From positions 1-34,009 of the forward strand of contig JAKADQ010000005.1 in assembly GCA_021820405.1 (NCBI GenBank): a stretch of DNA of 34,009 nt, given 5' to 3'. The position numbers were made by a program, and so were the translations under genes. Under the pieces are notes generated by a model. That model was given only the letters and a program-made list of their open reading frames with translations, was not told where the DNA came from and did not search any database. Below are positions 5,170 to 14,399 of the stretch, in pieces (the stretch's first letter is position 1; each line of letters starts with the position of its first letter). The DNA comes from Thermoplasmata archaeon (GTDB taxonomy: Archaea > Thermoplasmatota > Thermoplasmata > Thermoplasmatales > Thermoplasmataceae).

Positions 5170-5547
5170 TTAGAGGCTTGCAAAAATAAAGTTGAGGACT
5201 ACACCAGAAATGATATAAAGAATCCCCGCACTTCCATATATTACAGTCATTATGAGTTGCTCTCTGTTAATCTGCGTTATATCATTCTCTTTGAGTGGAG
5301 CCTTGGCGATGAATACATTTTCCAGGTATCTGTTTGCCCCAAAGTCGTAGAACGCTCCAAAAAAAATTATAACTATGCCTAGAAGAACCAGAACTAATGG
5401 AAAAACCTCTGCATAACTTTTTTTGTTTGCAATGAAAAGGATCACAGAGACAACAATCAAAGAAAGAAGAATTGCTAGAACAGGGAGAGTTAGTAGAAAT
5501 CTGGTCCTCCTTACTTCATTCAGCCTGTTATATTCCTCGCCTGCCAT
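5170..5547 (-). CDS. small membrane protein, last gene of the peptide ABC operon
   Basis: A 125-residue protein not assigned to a family. Three hydrophobic segments are visible, at about 18-40, 47-68 and 98-121, with a basic N-terminus (NEVRRTR) and a polar loop around 75-95. Its ATG follows the stop codon of the OppDF ATPase after a single base (TGA-a-ATG), so it is almost certainly translated by coupling with the transporter. That linkage suggests an accessory or stabilising subunit of the importer; this is inference from context only. Confidence 0.72.
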   Translation of the reverse strand: MAGEEYNRLNEVRRTRFLLTLPVLAILLSLIVVSVILFIANKKSYAEVFPLVLVLLGIVIIFFGAFYDFGANRYLENVFIAKAPLKENDITQINREQLIMTVIYGSAGILYIISGVVLNFIFASL

Positions 5548-5548
5548 T

Positions 5549-8005
5549 TCAGTTCTCGTCTTTTAGGTCTCCTTCCTCCAGATTTTCTGCTTCATTCATT
5601 GTGTAGTTTGGCGTTAGCTCGTCCTGAGCGAAATGACACAGGTAATATCTATCCCCCACATCTATCATCTGCGGATCCTGGTCCTTACATATGTCTTTTC
5701 TAAAAACACACCTTCCGTAGAATCTGCATCCCGCCTTTGGATTGATTGCACTGCCTATCTCACCAACAATGGAAAGTTTTCTGTTTACCCATGAAGGATC
5801 TATACTGGGGACTGCGGATATTAGAGCCTTGGTATATGGATGAAGCGGATTACTTATTATTTCCTCAGACTTCCCAAATTCAAGCACTTGCCCAAGGTAC
5901 ATGACAACTATGTAGTCTGAAACATATCTGGCTGATGCTATGTCATGGGAGATATATAGGACCGTTATTCCTTTTTCACTCTTAAGGTCAATCAGGAGAT
6001 TCATTATGTTTGCCCTTATGGAAACGTCGAGCATTGAAATAGGTTCATCTGCAACCAGAAAAGATGGATTCAGCGTTATTGCCCTTGCTATGGACACTCT
6101 CTGCCTTTCACCACCTGAAAGTTCGTGGGGAAACCTTTCTGCATAATTTTCGGGCGGTCTCAAATTTGCTATAGATAACGCATTATAAATCTCGTCTTTA
6201 AGATCAAATTTTTCCCCCTTGGGAGATCCATCGGGTTCCTGAATATTGGAAATACTCTTTATTTCTCTTCTTGCCTGTATCTCCTTGGACTGTATTGCCA
6301 GTGGCTCTCCCACAATATCAAAAACAGACATTTTCGGGTTTATTGAGTCAAATGGATCCTGGAATATTAACTGTGCTTCTTTTCTGTATGTCTTATAGTC
6401 TGAACTATATTTGCTGGCCTTCGATAGATTAACCTGGATAGTCTCTCCGTCATTCCTCACTATCGTGAATTTAATTTCACCCTTTGTAGGCTCAATCGCA
6501 TTAACAAGCAGCCTACCAAGAGTTGTCTTTCCTGATCCACTCTCTCCAACAACTCCAATTATGGTCCCCCTTGGAATTCTCAGGTTGACGTTATCCACTG
6601 CATGCACAATAGGTTTATTTGGTCCTCCAAAGAGGTTTGTGGAAAGTGTTGAATGAACAGTGAAATATTTGGTTAAGCCATCCACTCCCACAAGAGTTTC
6701 ATTCTTATCTCCCGAATCATACCAGGTGCTGTTTTCATCAACATTCTGTGAAGAATTATATAGTTCCTCATTGACCTGGTCAAAGTGGCATAGGGAATAG
6801 TGATTCTGGTCAAGCATTTTTGGTTCTGGTTTCTTCTCGAAGCAGACTTCCTCAGCCATGAAACATCTGTTTGCAAAGTAGCACCCTTTCGGAGGATCTA
6901 TAAGATCTGGAACTGAACCAGGAATGCCTCTAATCCTCCTCTTTGTCATTTCAATTGACGGATAACTGTGCAGGAGGGCATAGGTGTAAGGGTTTCTTGC
7001 TTTGAGAAAGATATCCTCAGGTCTGCCATACTCCATTATTCTTCCTGCATACATAACTGCAACGAAATTGGCTAGCTGGGATACAACGCCAACATCGTGA
7101 GAAATAACGATCATGGACTTTATTGTTCCATTATCCTTCAGGTTCTTCAATTCTTTTATTATTTTGGCCTGTGTGATCACATCCAGACCAGTGGTTGGCT
7201 CGTCGGCTATCACCACCTTAGGTTTAAGTGCCAGAGCCATGGCAATGATTCCCCTCTGTTTCATTCCACCACTTAATTCGTGCGGGTATGAATCAAGAAA
7301 TTTCTTGTTGAATCCAGCAAGCCTGCAGCTCTCCTCTATTCTATTTTTCTCCAGCAGTTTCCTCTTCTGAGTAGCACTCATATTGGGTATCCTGGCTTTT
7401 AAGTCTTCCAGTAGATCCTGATAAATATTCTCCTTGAGCACTTCAAAATCCAGATCTTCCTTCTCCTCTTTCTGTTGAAGAGCTATTTCATAGGCATCTG
7501 CCCTCAGATTGCTTTCATTTATTAAATCTTCATCAGAAAACTCAGAAAGGTCAGCAAATGTTCCATGGATAGCAAAAACTTCTTCAATTTGAGATCTAAT
7601 TGTATGTACAGGATTAAAGGCATTCATTGCTCCCTGAAATATCATAGAGATTTCTTTCCACCTAATTTCAGCGAGCCTCTGATCCAGATCCCTTCTGTAC
7701 TTTTTTCTCATCTTTTTCTCTTTTGGATAATCCTTTGAATTAATGATCTCCTTATCCAGATACTCTATTCGCCCTTCTGTTTCTGCATTTTCTGCCAGTA
7801 GACCAAGCAGGGCTAGGGCAGTAGTCGATTTTCCCGACCCGCTTTCACCTATTAAACCTAAAATCTCGCCTTCTTTCAGGTCAAGATTAACTTGATCCAG
7901 GGCCTGAACCTTTCCATCCATAGTTTTGAAATGAACAGATAGATCTCTGATCTCAATAAGTGTTTTCTTATTCATTACATCAAATTCCTGCTTCTGCAAA
8001 TTCAT
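5549..8005 (-). CDS. fused oligopeptide ABC transporter ATPase (OppD-OppF)
   Basis: An 818-residue protein holding both nucleotide-binding domains of a peptide importer. Domain 1 has Walker A GESGSGKS (53-60), signature LSGGMKQ (244-250), Walker B VVIADEP (264-270) and switch H303. Domain 2 has Walker A GESGSGKT (487-494), signature LSGGERQ (629-635), Walker B VADEP (651-655) and H687. Each ends in an oligopeptide-transporter C-terminal segment with four Cys (375, 381, 388, 406 and 760, 766, 773, 790), a pattern that can bind an iron-sulfur cluster in some OppD proteins. Domain 1 has a charged insert of roughly 50 residues between Q-loop and signature. Most organisms encode OppD and OppF separately. 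The start may be ATG 8005 (ATGA overlap with oppC), TTG 7999 or ATG 7975; the Shine-Dalgarno spacing favours TTG 7999. Confidence 0.94.
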   Translation of the reverse strand: MNLQKQEFDVMNKKTLIEIRDLSVHFKTMDGKVQALDQVNLDLKEGEILGLIGESGSGKSTTALALLGLLAENAETEGRIEYLDKEIINSKDYPKEKKMRKKYRRDLDQRLAEIRWKEISMIFQGAMNAFNPVHTIRSQIEEVFAIHGTFADLSEFSDEDLINESNLRADAYEIALQQKEEKEDLDFEVLKENIYQDLLEDLKARIPNMSATQKRKLLEKNRIEESCRLAGFNKKFLDSYPHELSGGMKQRGIIAMALALKPKVVIADEPTTGLDVITQAKIIKELKNLKDNGTIKSMIVISHDVGVVSQLANFVAVMYAGRIMEYGRPEDIFLKARNPYTYALLHSYPSIEMTKRRIRGIPGSVPDLIDPPKGCYFANRCFMAEEVCFEKKPEPKMLDQNHYSLCHFDQVNEELYNSSQNVDENSTWYDSGDKNETLVGVDGLTKYFTVHSTLSTNLFGGPNKPIVHAVDNVNLRIPRGTIIGVVGESGSGKTTLGRLLVNAIEPTKGEIKFTIVRNDGETIQVNLSKASKYSSDYKTYRKEAQLIFQDPFDSINPKMSVFDIVGEPLAIQSKEIQARREIKSISNIQEPDGSPKGEKFDLKDEIYNALSIANLRPPENYAERFPHELSGGERQRVSIARAITLNPSFLVADEPISMLDVSIRANIMNLLIDLKSEKGITVLYISHDIASARYVSDYIVVMYLGQVLEFGKSEEIISNPLHPYTKALISAVPSIDPSWVNRKLSIVGEIGSAINPKAGCRFYGRCVFRKDICKDQDPQMIDVGDRYYLCHFAQDELTPNYTMNEAENLEEGDLKDEN

Positions 8006-10272
8006 CTCCTCCTGAGTCTTGGATTTACAACCTCATCCATACCACGCGATACGAATATTAGCGAGAATATGAATGCTGACAATGCAATTGCCGGAGGTAT
8101 GATCCACTGGGGTTCTGTTATAAGGTAGAACTCATCCTTCAAAACGGCGTTCAGCATTCCTCCCCATGTGGCAGTATTCAAAGGTGCAAGTCCAAGAAAT
8201 TCCAGGCCAGATACAGCTCCAACTCCTCCACTTATGGATAATGCCAATAGATAAAGAAGTAGCGGCCCAATATTTGGAAGTACGTGTCTTCTCATGATAG
8301 AAGTGTCTCTTGAGCCAAACAGTTTCGCCGCTTCTACAAACGACCTGGATGAGACTCCACGCACAACTCCAATTAAGGTAAATGCCGCAAACGGCCATCC
8401 TGTAAGACTTACAATGAGAATCAGATCAATAAAGTTAGCATTTCCCGGTATCACAGACGAAAGAGCTATCAGCAGCGCAAGAGACGGAACAAGGAATAAG
8501 GCCAGAGACAACGTTTCAATTATCTGGCCACCAAGTCCCCCTTTGTAACCTACATACATGGCAACCGCAAGCGAAATTACTATGGAGAAAAACCCTATGC
8601 TTATTCCGAATATCCAGTCATTATAGAAACTCTGAAGGAATCTGGACCATAGATCAGCCTTGGTGAAGAATGTGGTTCCAAAGGGATAGGATTGTCCTGT
8701 AGGTGTTTTGATCATGGGGGGCAATGGAGCGTAAGAAGATGCAGTTGAACCTATTATGTAGATGTACCCTTCATTTGTCGTAAACGCAATTGCCCCTTTA
8801 CCTGTGTAACTATTAGAGAAATATAGTATGGAGGAAACATTAGTGGGAGTTGGGGAAACCGTGTAACTCCATAGAAAGGCAGTGGCTGAAGAATTGGCTG
8901 AATCATTAAATGATATGGCAACCCCTTTTTGCGATACGAATATAAGCGAATTAGTCACTGAATCATATACACCATGAGTCAGTATATTTCCAGATATGGA
9001 AGAAGAATACGGAACTTCATAAAATACATATCCCTTCAGAGATAGATTATATGCAAGAATCTGAAAATAATTAGCAGACATTCCTATTATATAAGCGGGT
9101 GGCCCATTTCTTCCCTTACTTGTGGAAATCGAATATGTCGCATATGGATAGCTGTAGATCATCTTATGGCTACCATTTTCTATATTTATAGAATAGATAT
9201 CTCTATCATTTGAAATAAGATAAATTGAATTATTAGTCGAAAGTGAGACCTGATAAAATGAAGGAATAATAAGTCCGTTTTGCGTATTTATCTTAGTAAA
9301 ATTATCCTGCCACATTTCTGTGCCATTGTATGTGGAATAAGAAATTACAGACGTGCTGTTGTATATCAGAAATCTCGAATAATTTACGGCTTGTGAAAGA
9401 TAAAGTTGCTTACCATAGAATTTAACGCCGGATATATTTTTCATATTTATTTTGAATGTATGGAAGAGAGAAAAGGGAAAAACGGTAAATTCGTTCATAA
9501 AAATACCTGTTTTATTCTGTGTCATAATATTTATCAGACCATTGGGAAAATCCGCAACTGCATTGAAGCAATACTCAGGCATTGGTGTGGATGGTGAATT
9601 ATCGAAAGCTATGCCGTTAGTTGTTATGTTTCCTACAATCGTTCCGTTCAGTTTTTCGTTATAGAGAAATTTAAAATAAGGTGACTTTTCTTGGCTGTTT
9701 CTGTATTCTATTTCTCCAACCGTAAAGGAATCGTTCGTATATGGAAGAACTACAAATCTATTGATCACTACATCTGTTCCCTGGCTATTAGCTAAAATTC
9801 TTCCGTTAAGTAGATCAAATAGGACTGGTTTTAACATTTTCTCATTACTATTTGTAAAACTAGAGTTATATATCATACCTACCGAACCTAAGGGTGTGCC
9901 TGGCTCACCCAGTCCTACATAGTACAATGCTCCGTCAGAATTTGGGACATACACGGCGCCTTCATATCCTTCAGACTCTACTGATGATGATATCGGGCCA
10001 TAAAAAACTCCACCACTTGTGTGAGTTTCGTTATATAAACTTACATTGGCAATTGGACTGGCAAGGGTTGAATCTATGGCCGGAGCTGACGTGTAGTAGC
10101 CCACATTTCCACCAACATATGGGGCTATCATAGTAACAATCGCAAATGCCAGTAATATGTAAAATCCAGCCCTCCCATATTTACTTTTATAGAATATGGT
10201 GAACTGCTTGTACAATCTCTTCCAATATAATGGAGGATTGATTATTGCATATTTATTTTTCCTATCAGTCAT
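8002..10272 (-). CDS. oligopeptide ABC permease (OppC type) with giant extracytoplasmic domain
   Basis: A 756-residue permease; OppC/DppC proteins are usually about 300. The first helix is at about 35-53, and the transport domain occupies the last 200 residues, with the ATPase-coupling loop around E647 (EAAKLFGS) and five further helices. Between them sit about 490 residues with many N-x-S/T sequons and repeated strand-rich units such as GTEMWQDNF and GYIYIIGS, reminiscent of a PQQ-type beta-propeller. The insert would lie outside the cell, next to the binding protein. The frame opens at GTG 10281, but ATG 10272 is preferred because AGGTG lies 8 nt upstream. It overlaps the ATPase gene by four bases (ATGA) and follows oppB by 21 bp. 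Confidence 0.9.
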   Translation of the reverse strand: MTDRKNKYAIINPPLYWKRLYKQFTIFYKSKYGRAGFYILLAFAIVTMIAPYVGGNVGYYTSAPAIDSTLASPIANVSLYNETHTSGGVFYGPISSSVESEGYEGAVYVPNSDGALYYVGLGEPGTPLGSVGMIYNSSFTNSNEKMLKPVLFDLLNGRILANSQGTDVVINRFVVLPYTNDSFTVGEIEYRNSQEKSPYFKFLYNEKLNGTIVGNITTNGIAFDNSPSTPMPEYCFNAVADFPNGLINIMTQNKTGIFMNEFTVFPFSLFHTFKINMKNISGVKFYGKQLYLSQAVNYSRFLIYNSTSVISYSTYNGTEMWQDNFTKINTQNGLIIPSFYQVSLSTNNSIYLISNDRDIYSINIENGSHKMIYSYPYATYSISTSKGRNGPPAYIIGMSANYFQILAYNLSLKGYVFYEVPYSSSISGNILTHGVYDSVTNSLIFVSQKGVAISFNDSANSSATAFLWSYTVSPTPTNVSSILYFSNSYTGKGAIAFTTNEGYIYIIGSTASSYAPLPPMIKTPTGQSYPFGTTFFTKADLWSRFLQSFYNDWIFGISIGFFSIVISLAVAMYVGYKGGLGGQIIETLSLALFLVPSLALLIALSSVIPGNANFIDLILIVSLTGWPFAAFTLIGVVRGVSSRSFVEAAKLFGSRDTSIMRRHVLPNIGPLLLYLLALSISGGVGAVSGLEFLGLAPLNTATWGGMLNAVLKDEFYLITEPQWIIPPAIALSAFIFSLIFVSRGMDEVVNPRLRRR
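8006..8013 (-). promoter_or_regulatory. Shine-Dalgarno site bearing on the OppDF start
   Basis: AGGAGGAG, which also encodes the last Arg codons of OppC, abuts the ATG at 8005. The GGAGG core is only 2 nt from that ATG but 8 nt from the in-frame TTG at 7999. The spacing argues for initiation at the TTG. Confidence 0.5.
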
Positions 10273-10293
10273 TTTATACACCTAATTAAAACC

Positions 10294-11280
10294 TCAAACC
10301 TTGATCCTTGGATCAAGCCATGCGTGAATGTAGTCAATCATGGAATAAGCCAGTATTGTAAGAAGTGAAATAATAAATGTGGAAGCCTCACTTAGAGGAT
10401 AATCTTCATGCAGAACTGCTTTATAAAGCAACGGACCCATGCCAGGCCAGTTGAATATGATAGCTACAATAAGTGATCCACTCATTAAGAATGCAATTTG
10501 AAGTGCGAGTCTCGTAGTCACAGGTATTACAGCAATACGAGCTGCGTGTTTTCTTAATATGCTTTTTTCCGGAACACCTTTGGCTCTAGCAGTTGTTATA
10601 TGATCCTCGCCGAGAGTTGAAACCATTGCGGCTCTCATTGTGATCATGTGCCCCGCCGTCTCAATCAAGAGCAGGGATATAAAGGGAAGCGCCATATCGT
10701 AAAGCAAAGTTAAGATTGTTGAAAAAGTAGGGTGTTCTATATAGGAAAGAGGAATCTGAGCCTTTATGGGAAACCATCCAAGGGCTACTACAAAGTAAAG
10801 GAAAAGAAAAACTCCTATTATAAAGTAAGGAATTGAGTTCACAATAAGGGATAATGAAAGTATTACCCCCTCTTTCTTTCCACCTCTTATTCTTGAAACC
10901 CATATACCCAGAGGTATTCCTAAGGCAAATGACAGAAGTGAAGTTGATCCTATAAGCACCAGAGTATAAGGAAGGGCCTGTGCAATCTCTGTAGATACCA
11001 GTTCTCCCTGATTAATATAATCTTTTCCCCAGTTAAACGTAAACATCTGGTAAAGGTATGTCTCAAAATCTGTAAGGGAATATTTGCCATTTTGGAGACC
11101 AAGCTGAACAAGTCTATTGTGATATGCTTTAGGATTGACGTAACCTGATCTTGAAACTGTTATAAATAACTCAGCAGGGTTTCCCGGCATGAGTCTGAAC
11201 ACCACAAAGATAATAACCGTCATTATTAGAACCAAAGAAATGTCCTGAATAACCTTCCTAATAAGTAGATATATGTTCAT
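10294..11280 (-). CDS. oligopeptide ABC permease (OppB type)
   Basis: A 328-residue membrane protein of normal OppB/DppB length. It starts with a short cytoplasmic tail and a first helix at about 13-29 that runs into FRLMPGNPAE, a hallmark of this family. The coupling loop is TTARAKGVPEKSILRKHA. About six helices are present. It should form the membrane channel with the OppC-type partner encoded just downstream and be energised by the fused ATPase. The binding-protein gene lies 52 bp upstream on the same strand, so one operon is likely. Confidence 0.94.
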   Translation of the reverse strand: MNIYLLIRKVIQDISLVLIMTVIIFVVFRLMPGNPAELFITVSRSGYVNPKAYHNRLVQLGLQNGKYSLTDFETYLYQMFTFNWGKDYINQGELVSTEIAQALPYTLVLIGSTSLLSFALGIPLGIWVSRIRGGKKEGVILSLSLIVNSIPYFIIGVFLFLYFVVALGWFPIKAQIPLSYIEHPTFSTILTLLYDMALPFISLLLIETAGHMITMRAAMVSTLGEDHITTARAKGVPEKSILRKHAARIAVIPVTTRLALQIAFLMSGSLIVAIIFNWPGMGPLLYKAVLHEDYPLSEASTFIISLLTILAYSMIDYIHAWLDPRIKV

Positions 11281-11332: not shown

Positions 11333-14300
11333 TTATGCTGTCTTATTCTTCTTTTTGAAGAAAAAGACATATGAAGCAGCTCCAACCACCACAACAACAG
11401 CCACAACTATACCGGCTATAATCAAATCGTCATTATTTGAAGTTGGTGAGGTAACAGGTTTTGTGGGCGATACATAAATCTTTGCCAGACTTACTGTTGG
11501 TTGTATTGTATAGTTGTTGATTGTATTGTTATTCGAATAGATGTTTACTGAAAATGTTGTGTTCTTCAATTCTCCAACAAGCATTGAAGATGAAAGGCTG
11601 CTATTTACCACTGTGAAATTAAACACGGCAAGTCCACTTGAATCTGTCGTGGTCTTGAGCGAGGAAAACTGTATTCCCACAAGGGAACTTGAGTTCACCA
11701 TAACTGTCGCACCTTTGTATGCGTTACTGTTGTACGTAACACTGAAGACTATTTGCCCCTTTTCAAGATCCTGAACTCCATTGGTGTTGTTTTTACTGTA
11801 TACCAGATTCTTCACAGAGTAAGTGGATTTCAGTATTGGCCCATTTATTATGGAAAGGTTTACAGAACCCAAACCTGTACCAGTTTCTGTTGCATGTGGT
11901 TGAGATGCCGATGCGATTACTTGCATTGTTTCGTTATGCACACTGTACGTTGCTCCCGTCGTAGAATTTGTCGCAGTGAATAGAGCACTTAAGTAGGAGA
12001 CAATCTTAAACTCCCAGACAGCCTGACCCTGGGCATTTGTGGTGAGCTGATTGGGGGTTATATTCACAAGGCCTCCATAGCTTGATGAATCACCGATATA
12101 CAGAGTTACTCCACTTGCAGGGCTTGTTCCATTCATTACAGTGAATGTTATGTTACCATACTCATTACCGTTGAAGACGTTTCCATAAGTAAGTGACTGC
12201 TGTACAGTAAGGTTATACTTATCAACTACGCTTACAGAGGAAGTGTTTTTGTATATTGTGGTGTATTCCCAGAACCAGTATAGATAAGTAGCAGCAGAAT
12301 ACGTTGTTGAATAGTTTGTGAATGCGTCTGACAGTGGAATAAGGTCAGTTGCATATCCGGTTGCGATAACTGGGTCTTGTTCTATTATAAGAGAATCCAG
12401 TTCCTTTGCCACGCTTGATGCAACAGCAAAGCTGTCTGTGCTTATTGACTCATTTATGAGTTTGCAGAATAGCTGCTGAACCTGAGCACCAGTGAGCATC
12501 TTACCGTTGACCTCCATTGATGAAAATGGACCAAGGTAGGATTTTGCGGGCACTCCAACAACTGGAGAAAGATGTGCCTGGCAATCCAGAATTGGGTCAC
12601 CTAAGGCAGTACTCTCACCCTCAGAAGCTATTTCAAAGCCGTTGGTTTTGTGATGGCTCAATATGGTACTATCCACATTAGACTGAAGTGTTGTGAAAGC
12701 TTCCTGCTTCAAAACCGTACTAATTCCAAGTTCGTTCCAGTACTGGAATGTCTTTTCAATTGCTGCCACACCTGTTGGATTTTCAGCACCTGTAGTTATC
12801 TGAACTGTAAGAGTAACTGGGTTGCCATTATACAGGAGTTTTCCGGAGGATGAGTATGTCATTCCAGGTATGCTGTCTATCAGGGATTTAGCCTTGGCCA
12901 TGTTGAATGTATATTCAGGAGCACTGGCATTGTAGTACAGAGTATTGCCTGGGTTTATTGGGCTTGAGGATGGATATCCCAAACCATCAAGAATTACCTG
13001 ATTTATGTAGTTGTATGGCACAGAATAGGATAATGCCTGCCTGAATGCAGTTACGTTAAGAGGTGCATCTGCAGTATTCAGCTCCCAGTAACCGTATGCA
13101 CTTGACAATTTCTTATATATGAAACTGTTTGGAGTTGAACTTAGTTGGGGTAGGAAGTTAGGTGGAGGTGCAAGTGTCATGGTGTCAATCTGACCTTTCT
13201 GGAAGGCTGCCACCTCTGAAGAAACTGAGTCGTATATTGGCATATATATCTCATATATTTTTGGAGTAAACTGCCTTAGTCCGCTGGATGCATTTGTATA
13301 TTGGGTGAAATAGTATGGATTCACGTAAAGTGTCTCATGTTCACCTGGAATTATTTGTCCCTGTGGCATTCCAAAGTCATTTGTTACCATGAATGCGCCT
13401 GCTCCAACCATGCCTGGAACCGCACCGGTAGTCGGATTCCATCCAAGATTCCAGCCACAATATCCGTCTCCAGGAATTGCTGTGTTGTGGAACGGGCTCG
13501 ATGTGTTTGATGTGTTTGTGTAGTTAAAATCTCCCTGGCCTGATGTCGTGTAGTCGTGGTGTACCCATATGTGATATGGAAGTATATCACAGGCTAGAAC
13601 ATCTGTGAAAAACAATAGAGTCTTCTGGGTCACAAAGAACTTTACTGACAGATTCCCGTCAGGAATCACATTCACCACATCAGGAAAGTCTCCAAAATAG
13701 CTCTTTATCCTGTAGTTCAAGACAACATCAGCTGATTGCAGGTAGTATTTCTTCATTTTTGTAGGCTTATAGGATTTGTATGTGTGGTTAACTACCTGGC
13801 CATTGTAGCAGAATTCCGTGTAATTAGAAAACGTATATGTCTGGCTGTTATTTGCTGGTGACCAGTCGGTCCATCTTACGTATGGCCTTATGTTTATTGT
13901 ATAAACGTAGGAATAGTTCTGGTAACTGTTTGTGTCTATATTGTATGTCTTGTTTCCGGGGCCAACATGCTGAACTGTGTAACCGGAAGCCATCCATGGA
14001 ACGTTAGTACCGTTCGGAAGAGTCTCAAATAATGCTGTTGCTCCCCATATCTGGCAATCAACAAACGCGTCACAGTATGTGGTCTCATCAAAGGGACTCA
14101 TCGATCCCGCGTTCCCTATCTGTCCTATCTTGAACACACCACCAGTATAATGCGGTTCAGTAGTTGCATTATCTGTCGGATATACCCATGGCGCAGAGGA
14201 AGACGCCTGTGCTTGCACAAGGTCATTGACCTTAAGTTTTCCTCCTAAATTGGCACTTAAAATATTCGTGCTTCTTGCTTTTCCTGTTAGTCCTGAAACG

Positions 14301-14377
14301 TTATCAAGAACCGCAAAAGCGGATCCTACCATTATCAGGGTTAAAAACAGGGCTACCAACATCCTTTTTTTATTCAT
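11333..14377 (-). CDS. large membrane-anchored extracellular solute-binding protein, family 5 (peptides)
   Basis: A 1014-residue surface protein. The N-terminus (MNKKRMLVALFLTLIMVGSA) is a signal sequence. Residues from about 75 to 690 match the SBP family 5 fold used for oligopeptides, e.g. FRQALSYSVPYNYINQ and the FETLPNGT region. Then follow about 240 residues of repetitive Ser/Thr/Asn-rich, Ig-like sequence (units with TTNAQGQAVWEF and TTTDSSGLAVFNF). A C-terminal helix (about 985-1006) with KKKNK after it anchors the chain in the membrane. Usual family length is 500-600, so the C-terminal stalk is the extra part. The ATG at 14377 is preferred over 14386 or TTG 14392 because it starts the signal peptide properly and lies about 27 bp from a TATA box. 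First gene of the importer operon. Confidence 0.93.
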   Translation of the reverse strand: MNKKRMLVALFLTLIMVGSAFAVLDNVSGLTGKARSTNILSANLGGKLKVNDLVQAQASSSAPWVYPTDNATTEPHYTGGVFKIGQIGNAGSMSPFDETTYCDAFVDCQIWGATALFETLPNGTNVPWMASGYTVQHVGPGNKTYNIDTNSYQNYSYVYTINIRPYVRWTDWSPANNSQTYTFSNYTEFCYNGQVVNHTYKSYKPTKMKKYYLQSADVVLNYRIKSYFGDFPDVVNVIPDGNLSVKFFVTQKTLLFFTDVLACDILPYHIWVHHDYTTSGQGDFNYTNTSNTSSPFHNTAIPGDGYCGWNLGWNPTTGAVPGMVGAGAFMVTNDFGMPQGQIIPGEHETLYVNPYYFTQYTNASSGLRQFTPKIYEIYMPIYDSVSSEVAAFQKGQIDTMTLAPPPNFLPQLSSTPNSFIYKKLSSAYGYWELNTADAPLNVTAFRQALSYSVPYNYINQVILDGLGYPSSSPINPGNTLYYNASAPEYTFNMAKAKSLIDSIPGMTYSSSGKLLYNGNPVTLTVQITTGAENPTGVAAIEKTFQYWNELGISTVLKQEAFTTLQSNVDSTILSHHKTNGFEIASEGESTALGDPILDCQAHLSPVVGVPAKSYLGPFSSMEVNGKMLTGAQVQQLFCKLINESISTDSFAVASSVAKELDSLIIEQDPVIATGYATDLIPLSDAFTNYSTTYSAATYLYWFWEYTTIYKNTSSVSVVDKYNLTVQQSLTYGNVFNGNEYGNITFTVMNGTSPASGVTLYIGDSSSYGGLVNITPNQLTTNAQGQAVWEFKIVSYLSALFTATNSTTGATYSVHNETMQVIASASQPHATETGTGLGSVNLSIINGPILKSTYSVKNLVYSKNNTNGVQDLEKGQIVFSVTYNSNAYKGATVMVNSSSLVGIQFSSLKTTTDSSGLAVFNFTVVNSSLSSSMLVGELKNTTFSVNIYSNNNTINNYTIQPTVSLAKIYVSPTKPVTSPTSNNDDLIIAGIVVAVVVVVGAASYVFFFKKKNKTA

Positions 14378-14399
14378 CCAAAACATATTCAAATTATAG

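Follow-up and report, generated by a model that had tools for sequence, protein, structure and literature searches.

A predicted beta-propeller inserted in the OppC permease of a probable peptide-importer operon in Thermoplasmata

OppC-type permease subunits are usually about 280-350 aa long and have a short first outer loop, and neither holds for an OppC-type gene in a 34,009-nucleotide stretch of DNA from a Thermoplasmata archaeon (contig JAKADQ010000005.1, here called the window), whose product has 759 aa and a 484-residue loop. A sequence-only reading of this DNA had described a peptide permease with an outer domain of roughly 490 residues after the first helix, sequon-rich, strand-rich and with propeller-like repeats, standing next to an anchored binding protein. 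The gene is part of a minus-strand operon in the order binding protein, OppB, propeller-OppC, fused OppDF and small protein, with the following features:

11333..14392, minus strand: substrate-binding protein, 1019 aa, SBP_bac_5 (PF00496, 5e-30)
10294..11280, minus strand: OppB permease, 328 aa, normal size (PF00528, 3e-32; NCBIfam Opp2B, 8e-55, below the curated cut-off)
8002..10281, minus strand: OppC-type permease with inserted propeller (predicted), 759 aa from a GTG or 756 aa from the ATG at 10272
10111..10182, minus strand: first transmembrane helix of OppC, residues about 34-57 (hydropathy, model, OppC_N in orthologues)
8659..10110, minus strand: OppC insert, residues 58-541, predicted to be extracellular (AlphaFold, Foldseek, orthologues)
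8005..8652, minus strand: conserved OppC membrane domain, residues 544-759 (PF00528, Foldseek, EAA-type motif)
5549..8005, minus strand: ATPase in which OppD and OppF are fused, 818 aa, with two each of the ABC and oligo_HPY domains
5170..5547, minus strand: small three-helix membrane protein, 125 aa, conserved directly after OppDF

A 4-nt overlap joins the OppC and OppDF genes, and the stop codon of OppDF is followed immediately by the small gene. The ATG at 10272, encoding the Met of codon 4, is the likelier OppC start because orthologues start there. The OppC identity proposed earlier is borne out by a Pfam match to BPD_transp_1 (PF00528) at residues 571-758 (7e-18) and by Foldseek matches of the membrane part to M. 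tuberculosis OppC and E. coli DppC chains in the PDB; an EAA-type motif, VEAAKLFGSRDTSIMRRHVLPN, is read from the sequence at residues 649-670. OppC_N is matched by 16 of the 19 orthologues (E up to 0.1, best 2.9e-4) and weakly, below cut-off, by the window protein (residues 29-56, 0.047). By hydropathy the first helix spans residues 38-56 and the second starts at 557; with the structural model, this places the start of the second helix near residues 544-557, and the measured length of the intervening loop, residues 58-541, is close to that first estimated. Against the curated NCBIfam OppC equivalogs (Opp1C-Opp4C, NikC) the protein scores below every cut-off, the best being Opp4C at 93.8 bits vs 350. 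Small size is a usual and not a defining trait of OppC, and we therefore keep the protein in the Opp/Dpp class as a variant.

Judged from its sequence, the window transporter belongs to the Opp/Dpp class of type I ABC importers, with only the insert and the small protein falling outside that known class. It resembles E. coli DppABCDF/OppBCDF and M. tuberculosis OppABCD/DppABCD (PDB 8z1w, 8z21, 8j5s, 8wd9) in the OppC membrane domain, the EAA-type motif and OppB, and Opp/Dpp-class importers in having two ABC domains with oligo_HPY tails and an SBP_bac_5 binding protein. It differs from these in the propeller of ~484 residues that forms the first outer loop of OppC, in the fusion of OppD to OppF, in a very long tethered binding protein, and in an extra small membrane protein. 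The binding protein has an N-terminal signal-like segment and a C-terminal transmembrane anchor, both read from the sequence, in keeping with the membrane-anchored neighbor expected at the outset.

Independent routes predict that the insert, which lies between helices 1 and 2, folds as a closed beta-propeller with about eight blades. In an AlphaFold model of OppC, built on an alignment of 19 sequences (mean pLDDT 79, pTM 0.65), the insert is all-beta, its strands forming about eight blades, with three to four strands in each, at residues 72-516 (10068-8734). Foldseek comparison of the insert with the PDB returned Sqt1 (2e-10), a designed propeller, Ski8 and BamB (about 1e-8), and some orthologues have propeller-type Pfam matches, both weak (Beta-prop_ACSF4, 8e-5; PQQ_2, 0.009). 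No credible match was found between the insert, or its profile, and PDB sequences. AlphaFold, Foldseek and the orthologue Pfam matches agree on a propeller, which is predicted rather than solved. The sequence-only reading had suggested a structure prediction and a fold search for propellers; the first gave a folded domain, the second matched propellers with E from 1e-8 to 2e-10, and the strand-rich, propeller-like repeats that it had noticed are borne out. The best fold matches are eight-bladed propellers of the BamB/PQQ-like and WD40 types (2yh3, 4zov), with which the insert has a PQQ-like blade motif in common (ISYSTYNGTEMW), although those propellers are soluble or lipid-anchored, whereas that of OppC is inserted in a permease.

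Three features support a location of the insert outside the cell: its position in the TM1-TM2 loop, the basic N-terminus of the protein, and the distribution of N-X-S/T sequons, with 18 in the insert vs 0 in the remaining 275 OppC residues. Composition shuffles predict 8.8 +/- 2.6 sequons in the insert (p = 0.0012), and both the outer placement and the sequon richness claimed earlier are thus upheld. The insert is kept at the same position in 18/18 aligned orthologues, with a length of 438-504 residues, and on the evidence of these alignments is under purifying selection, dN/dS being 0.09 for the insert and 0.03 for the membrane part in the single pair with unsaturated dS. Near relatives are 62-78% identical in the insert vs 93-95% in the membrane part; being far less conserved, the insert may contact something variable. 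Few of its residues are invariant overall, and those that are invariant or nearly so (G290, P340, Y343, G390, G393 and P395) lie in blade-joining loops according to the AlphaFold strand table, and so probably mark one conserved face.

A polar, sequon-rich and fast-evolving domain would also suit a surface scaffold that takes no part in the transport cycle, anchoring the importer to other glycoproteins on these cells, which lack a wall, or shielding the permease from acid. A role at the surface or in adhesion has been discussed for secreted beta-propeller proteins of these archaea (PMC10354927, PMC5498576). However, the propeller is confined to one permease family, and ordinary OppC paralogues of 284-350 aa share the same membranes without it, and we consider a purely structural role rather unlikely.

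The insert profile matches 39 of the 117 genomes of the order, 38 of them strongly, and 12 of its 33 genera; many genomes of the order are without propeller-OppC, and it is also present in further families of the class Thermoplasmata. Cuniculiplasma divulgatum S5 (G009; genome PMC5155288) carries the same propeller-OppC. We consider it highly improbable that the insert was gained sporadically and serves no conserved purpose, or that it is an artefact of annotation or assembly. The split OppC of G042 shows that the gene can be broken by assembly or by decay, but the insert keeps its length and position in 38 genomes of the order and in other members of the class, is under purifying selection and has a confidently predicted fold. 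An artefact was also rejected on finding orthologues in the single-contig genomes G009, G020, G022, G036 and G106, the last presumably Thermoplasma acidophilum. In G042 itself a stop or frameshift interrupts the gene within the propeller (L081 8073-8909 and 9007-10362), reflecting decay or an assembly error. A second propeller-OppC copy in the window's own assembly (G000:C7, L085) was set aside as contamination, since 4.7 kb of it is 97.2% identical in DNA to a genome from a different genus.

The survey of OppC lengths proposed in the sequence-only reading found enlarged OppC to be common in the phylum. Among the 150 OppC_N frames listed for the phylum sample, lengths are bimodal and mostly 284-350 aa, with 44 frames of at least 550 aa and 30 of at least 700 aa, each set including about seven OppB-OppC fusions. 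Six such fusions of 752-815 aa from one family of the phylum (L122, L123, L124, L128, L130 and L134) were rejected as enlarged loops, and an apparent OppB-OppC fusion in G113 is an assembly gap filled with N. A second group of enlarged OppC (730-825 aa), from Aciduliprofundum-like and other genomes, is predicted to be beta-propeller-like, with weaker fold matches (G040 we take to be Aciduliprofundum boonei). Compared by hhalign, the two groups match with E 1e-5, mainly via the shared OppC tail, and with E = 0.041 once this is trimmed. OppB is also enlarged in the second group, to 467-580 aa (L072 5953-7428, L073 7749-9170, L075 8608-10011, L077 9408-11150). Very long binding proteins of 980-1850 aa are encoded beside enlarged OppC genes (L074 9861-14768, L078 9673-14352, L117, L080 14261-18244), and still longer OppC frames of 1059-1106 aa occur in the class (L136 4087-7266, L148).

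Propeller-OppC is thus frequent in its class, yet it appears to have gone undescribed. The first remark, that no characterised peptide importer is known to have such a subunit, agrees with searches of the open-licence PMC literature, in which no paper describing an OppC or other ABC importer permease with a propeller was found, for this family or for the second enlarged group; the architecture is nevertheless not rare, given its presence in 12/33 genera of the order and beyond.

The small three-helix protein has no convincing Pfam family and carries the conserved motifs FFGAxxDFG and INxxQLIMTxIY. At almost all propeller-OppC loci its gene comes after OppDF, and among 395 phylum genomes it is present in 28/28 with a strong propeller-OppC match vs 1/367 without. 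The contig of the lone exception is cut inside OppDF, and OppC is therefore merely missing from that assembly. The p-value for the association (5e-42) overstates the case because the genomes are related, although the pattern spans several families. We propose an accessory role for the small protein, as a subunit dedicated to the importer. A PepT-family ATPase, CSP5_0340, is reported among the proteins of actively growing C. divulgatum cells (PMC7285479), and from gene density could be the OppDF of the propeller operon in that species.

A gene for tricorn, which degrades oligopeptides (PMC5473848), adjoins the operon at 18 loci in 16 genomes, 7 genera and 2 families (including L081 2104-5262, L083 12318-15398, L084 4509-7667 and L096 13976-17095). 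Its identity is backed by PDZ, C1 and S41 domains in genes that were scanned in full. Tricorn is present in 34/38 genomes with propeller-OppC vs 14/79 other genomes, and was not found in the window's own genome, which is 72.5% complete. Opp/Dpp-class importers can carry solutes other than peptides, but the adjacency and co-occurrence of tricorn support peptides as the cargo; we infer this from the family, the tricorn neighbors and the peptidolytic lifestyle of Cuniculiplasma (PMC7285479). Tricorn of Thermoplasma has propellers of its own and is a cytosolic protease, and we claim no kinship between these and the OppC propeller.

The propellers of tricorn and of prolyl peptidases are thought to gate substrate. 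By analogy, the OppC propeller might itself bind or filter peptides, its central channel or top face capturing substrate or admitting only extended peptides. In its favor, peptide binding is common among propellers, tricorn genes lie nearby, and the conserved inter-blade loops suggest one functional face; however, the insert diverges quickly and has few invariant residues, and a second receptor is not needed where the same operon encodes a full SBP_bac_5 binding protein. We regard direct peptide binding as doubtful, with much the same low probability as a surface scaffold.

In the usual description of type I importers, the binding protein docks onto a permease surface that is almost flat. A functional parallel is MalF-P2 of E. 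coli MalFGK2E, where one permease subunit likewise has a folded outer insert and this insert contacts MalE (PMC3150292). MalF-P2 differs in being 181 residues long (91-271), in not being a propeller and in belonging to a different importer class, and we claim no sequence relation between it and the OppC insert. On this analogy, our main reading, to which we assign a probability of roughly one half, is that the propeller keeps the tethered binding protein in place above the pore, in a MalF-P2-like docking role. The rapid divergence of the propeller and its absence from many genomes of the order count against this reading. The propeller would form a platform at the pore mouth that captures, orients or retains the long tethered binding protein, and may limit which molecules get to the pore. 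The small protein would join the same complex as a dedicated accessory subunit, and imported peptides would then be cut by tricorn in the cytosol, where the tricorn gene is present. A more elaborate version, which we think quite unlikely, is that these operons represent a distinct Opp importer subtype, in the genomes sampled restricted to Thermoplasmata, in which the propeller is a second fixed peptide-handling station between binding protein and pore, works with the dedicated small subunit and is tuned to peptides of tricorn length.

Such a role can be tested directly in cultured species, namely Cuniculiplasma divulgatum and probably Thermoplasma acidophilum. The propeller-OppC operon is also the likely context for a protein family that has no Pfam entry. 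A propeller built into the permease and retained throughout an archaeal class, always in company with a small membrane protein that has no name, would represent a new organization of delivery to the pore, and the combination of propeller-OppC, the small protein and a frequent tricorn neighbor in these acid-loving archaea suggests a specialized, undescribed kind of peptide-uptake machine.
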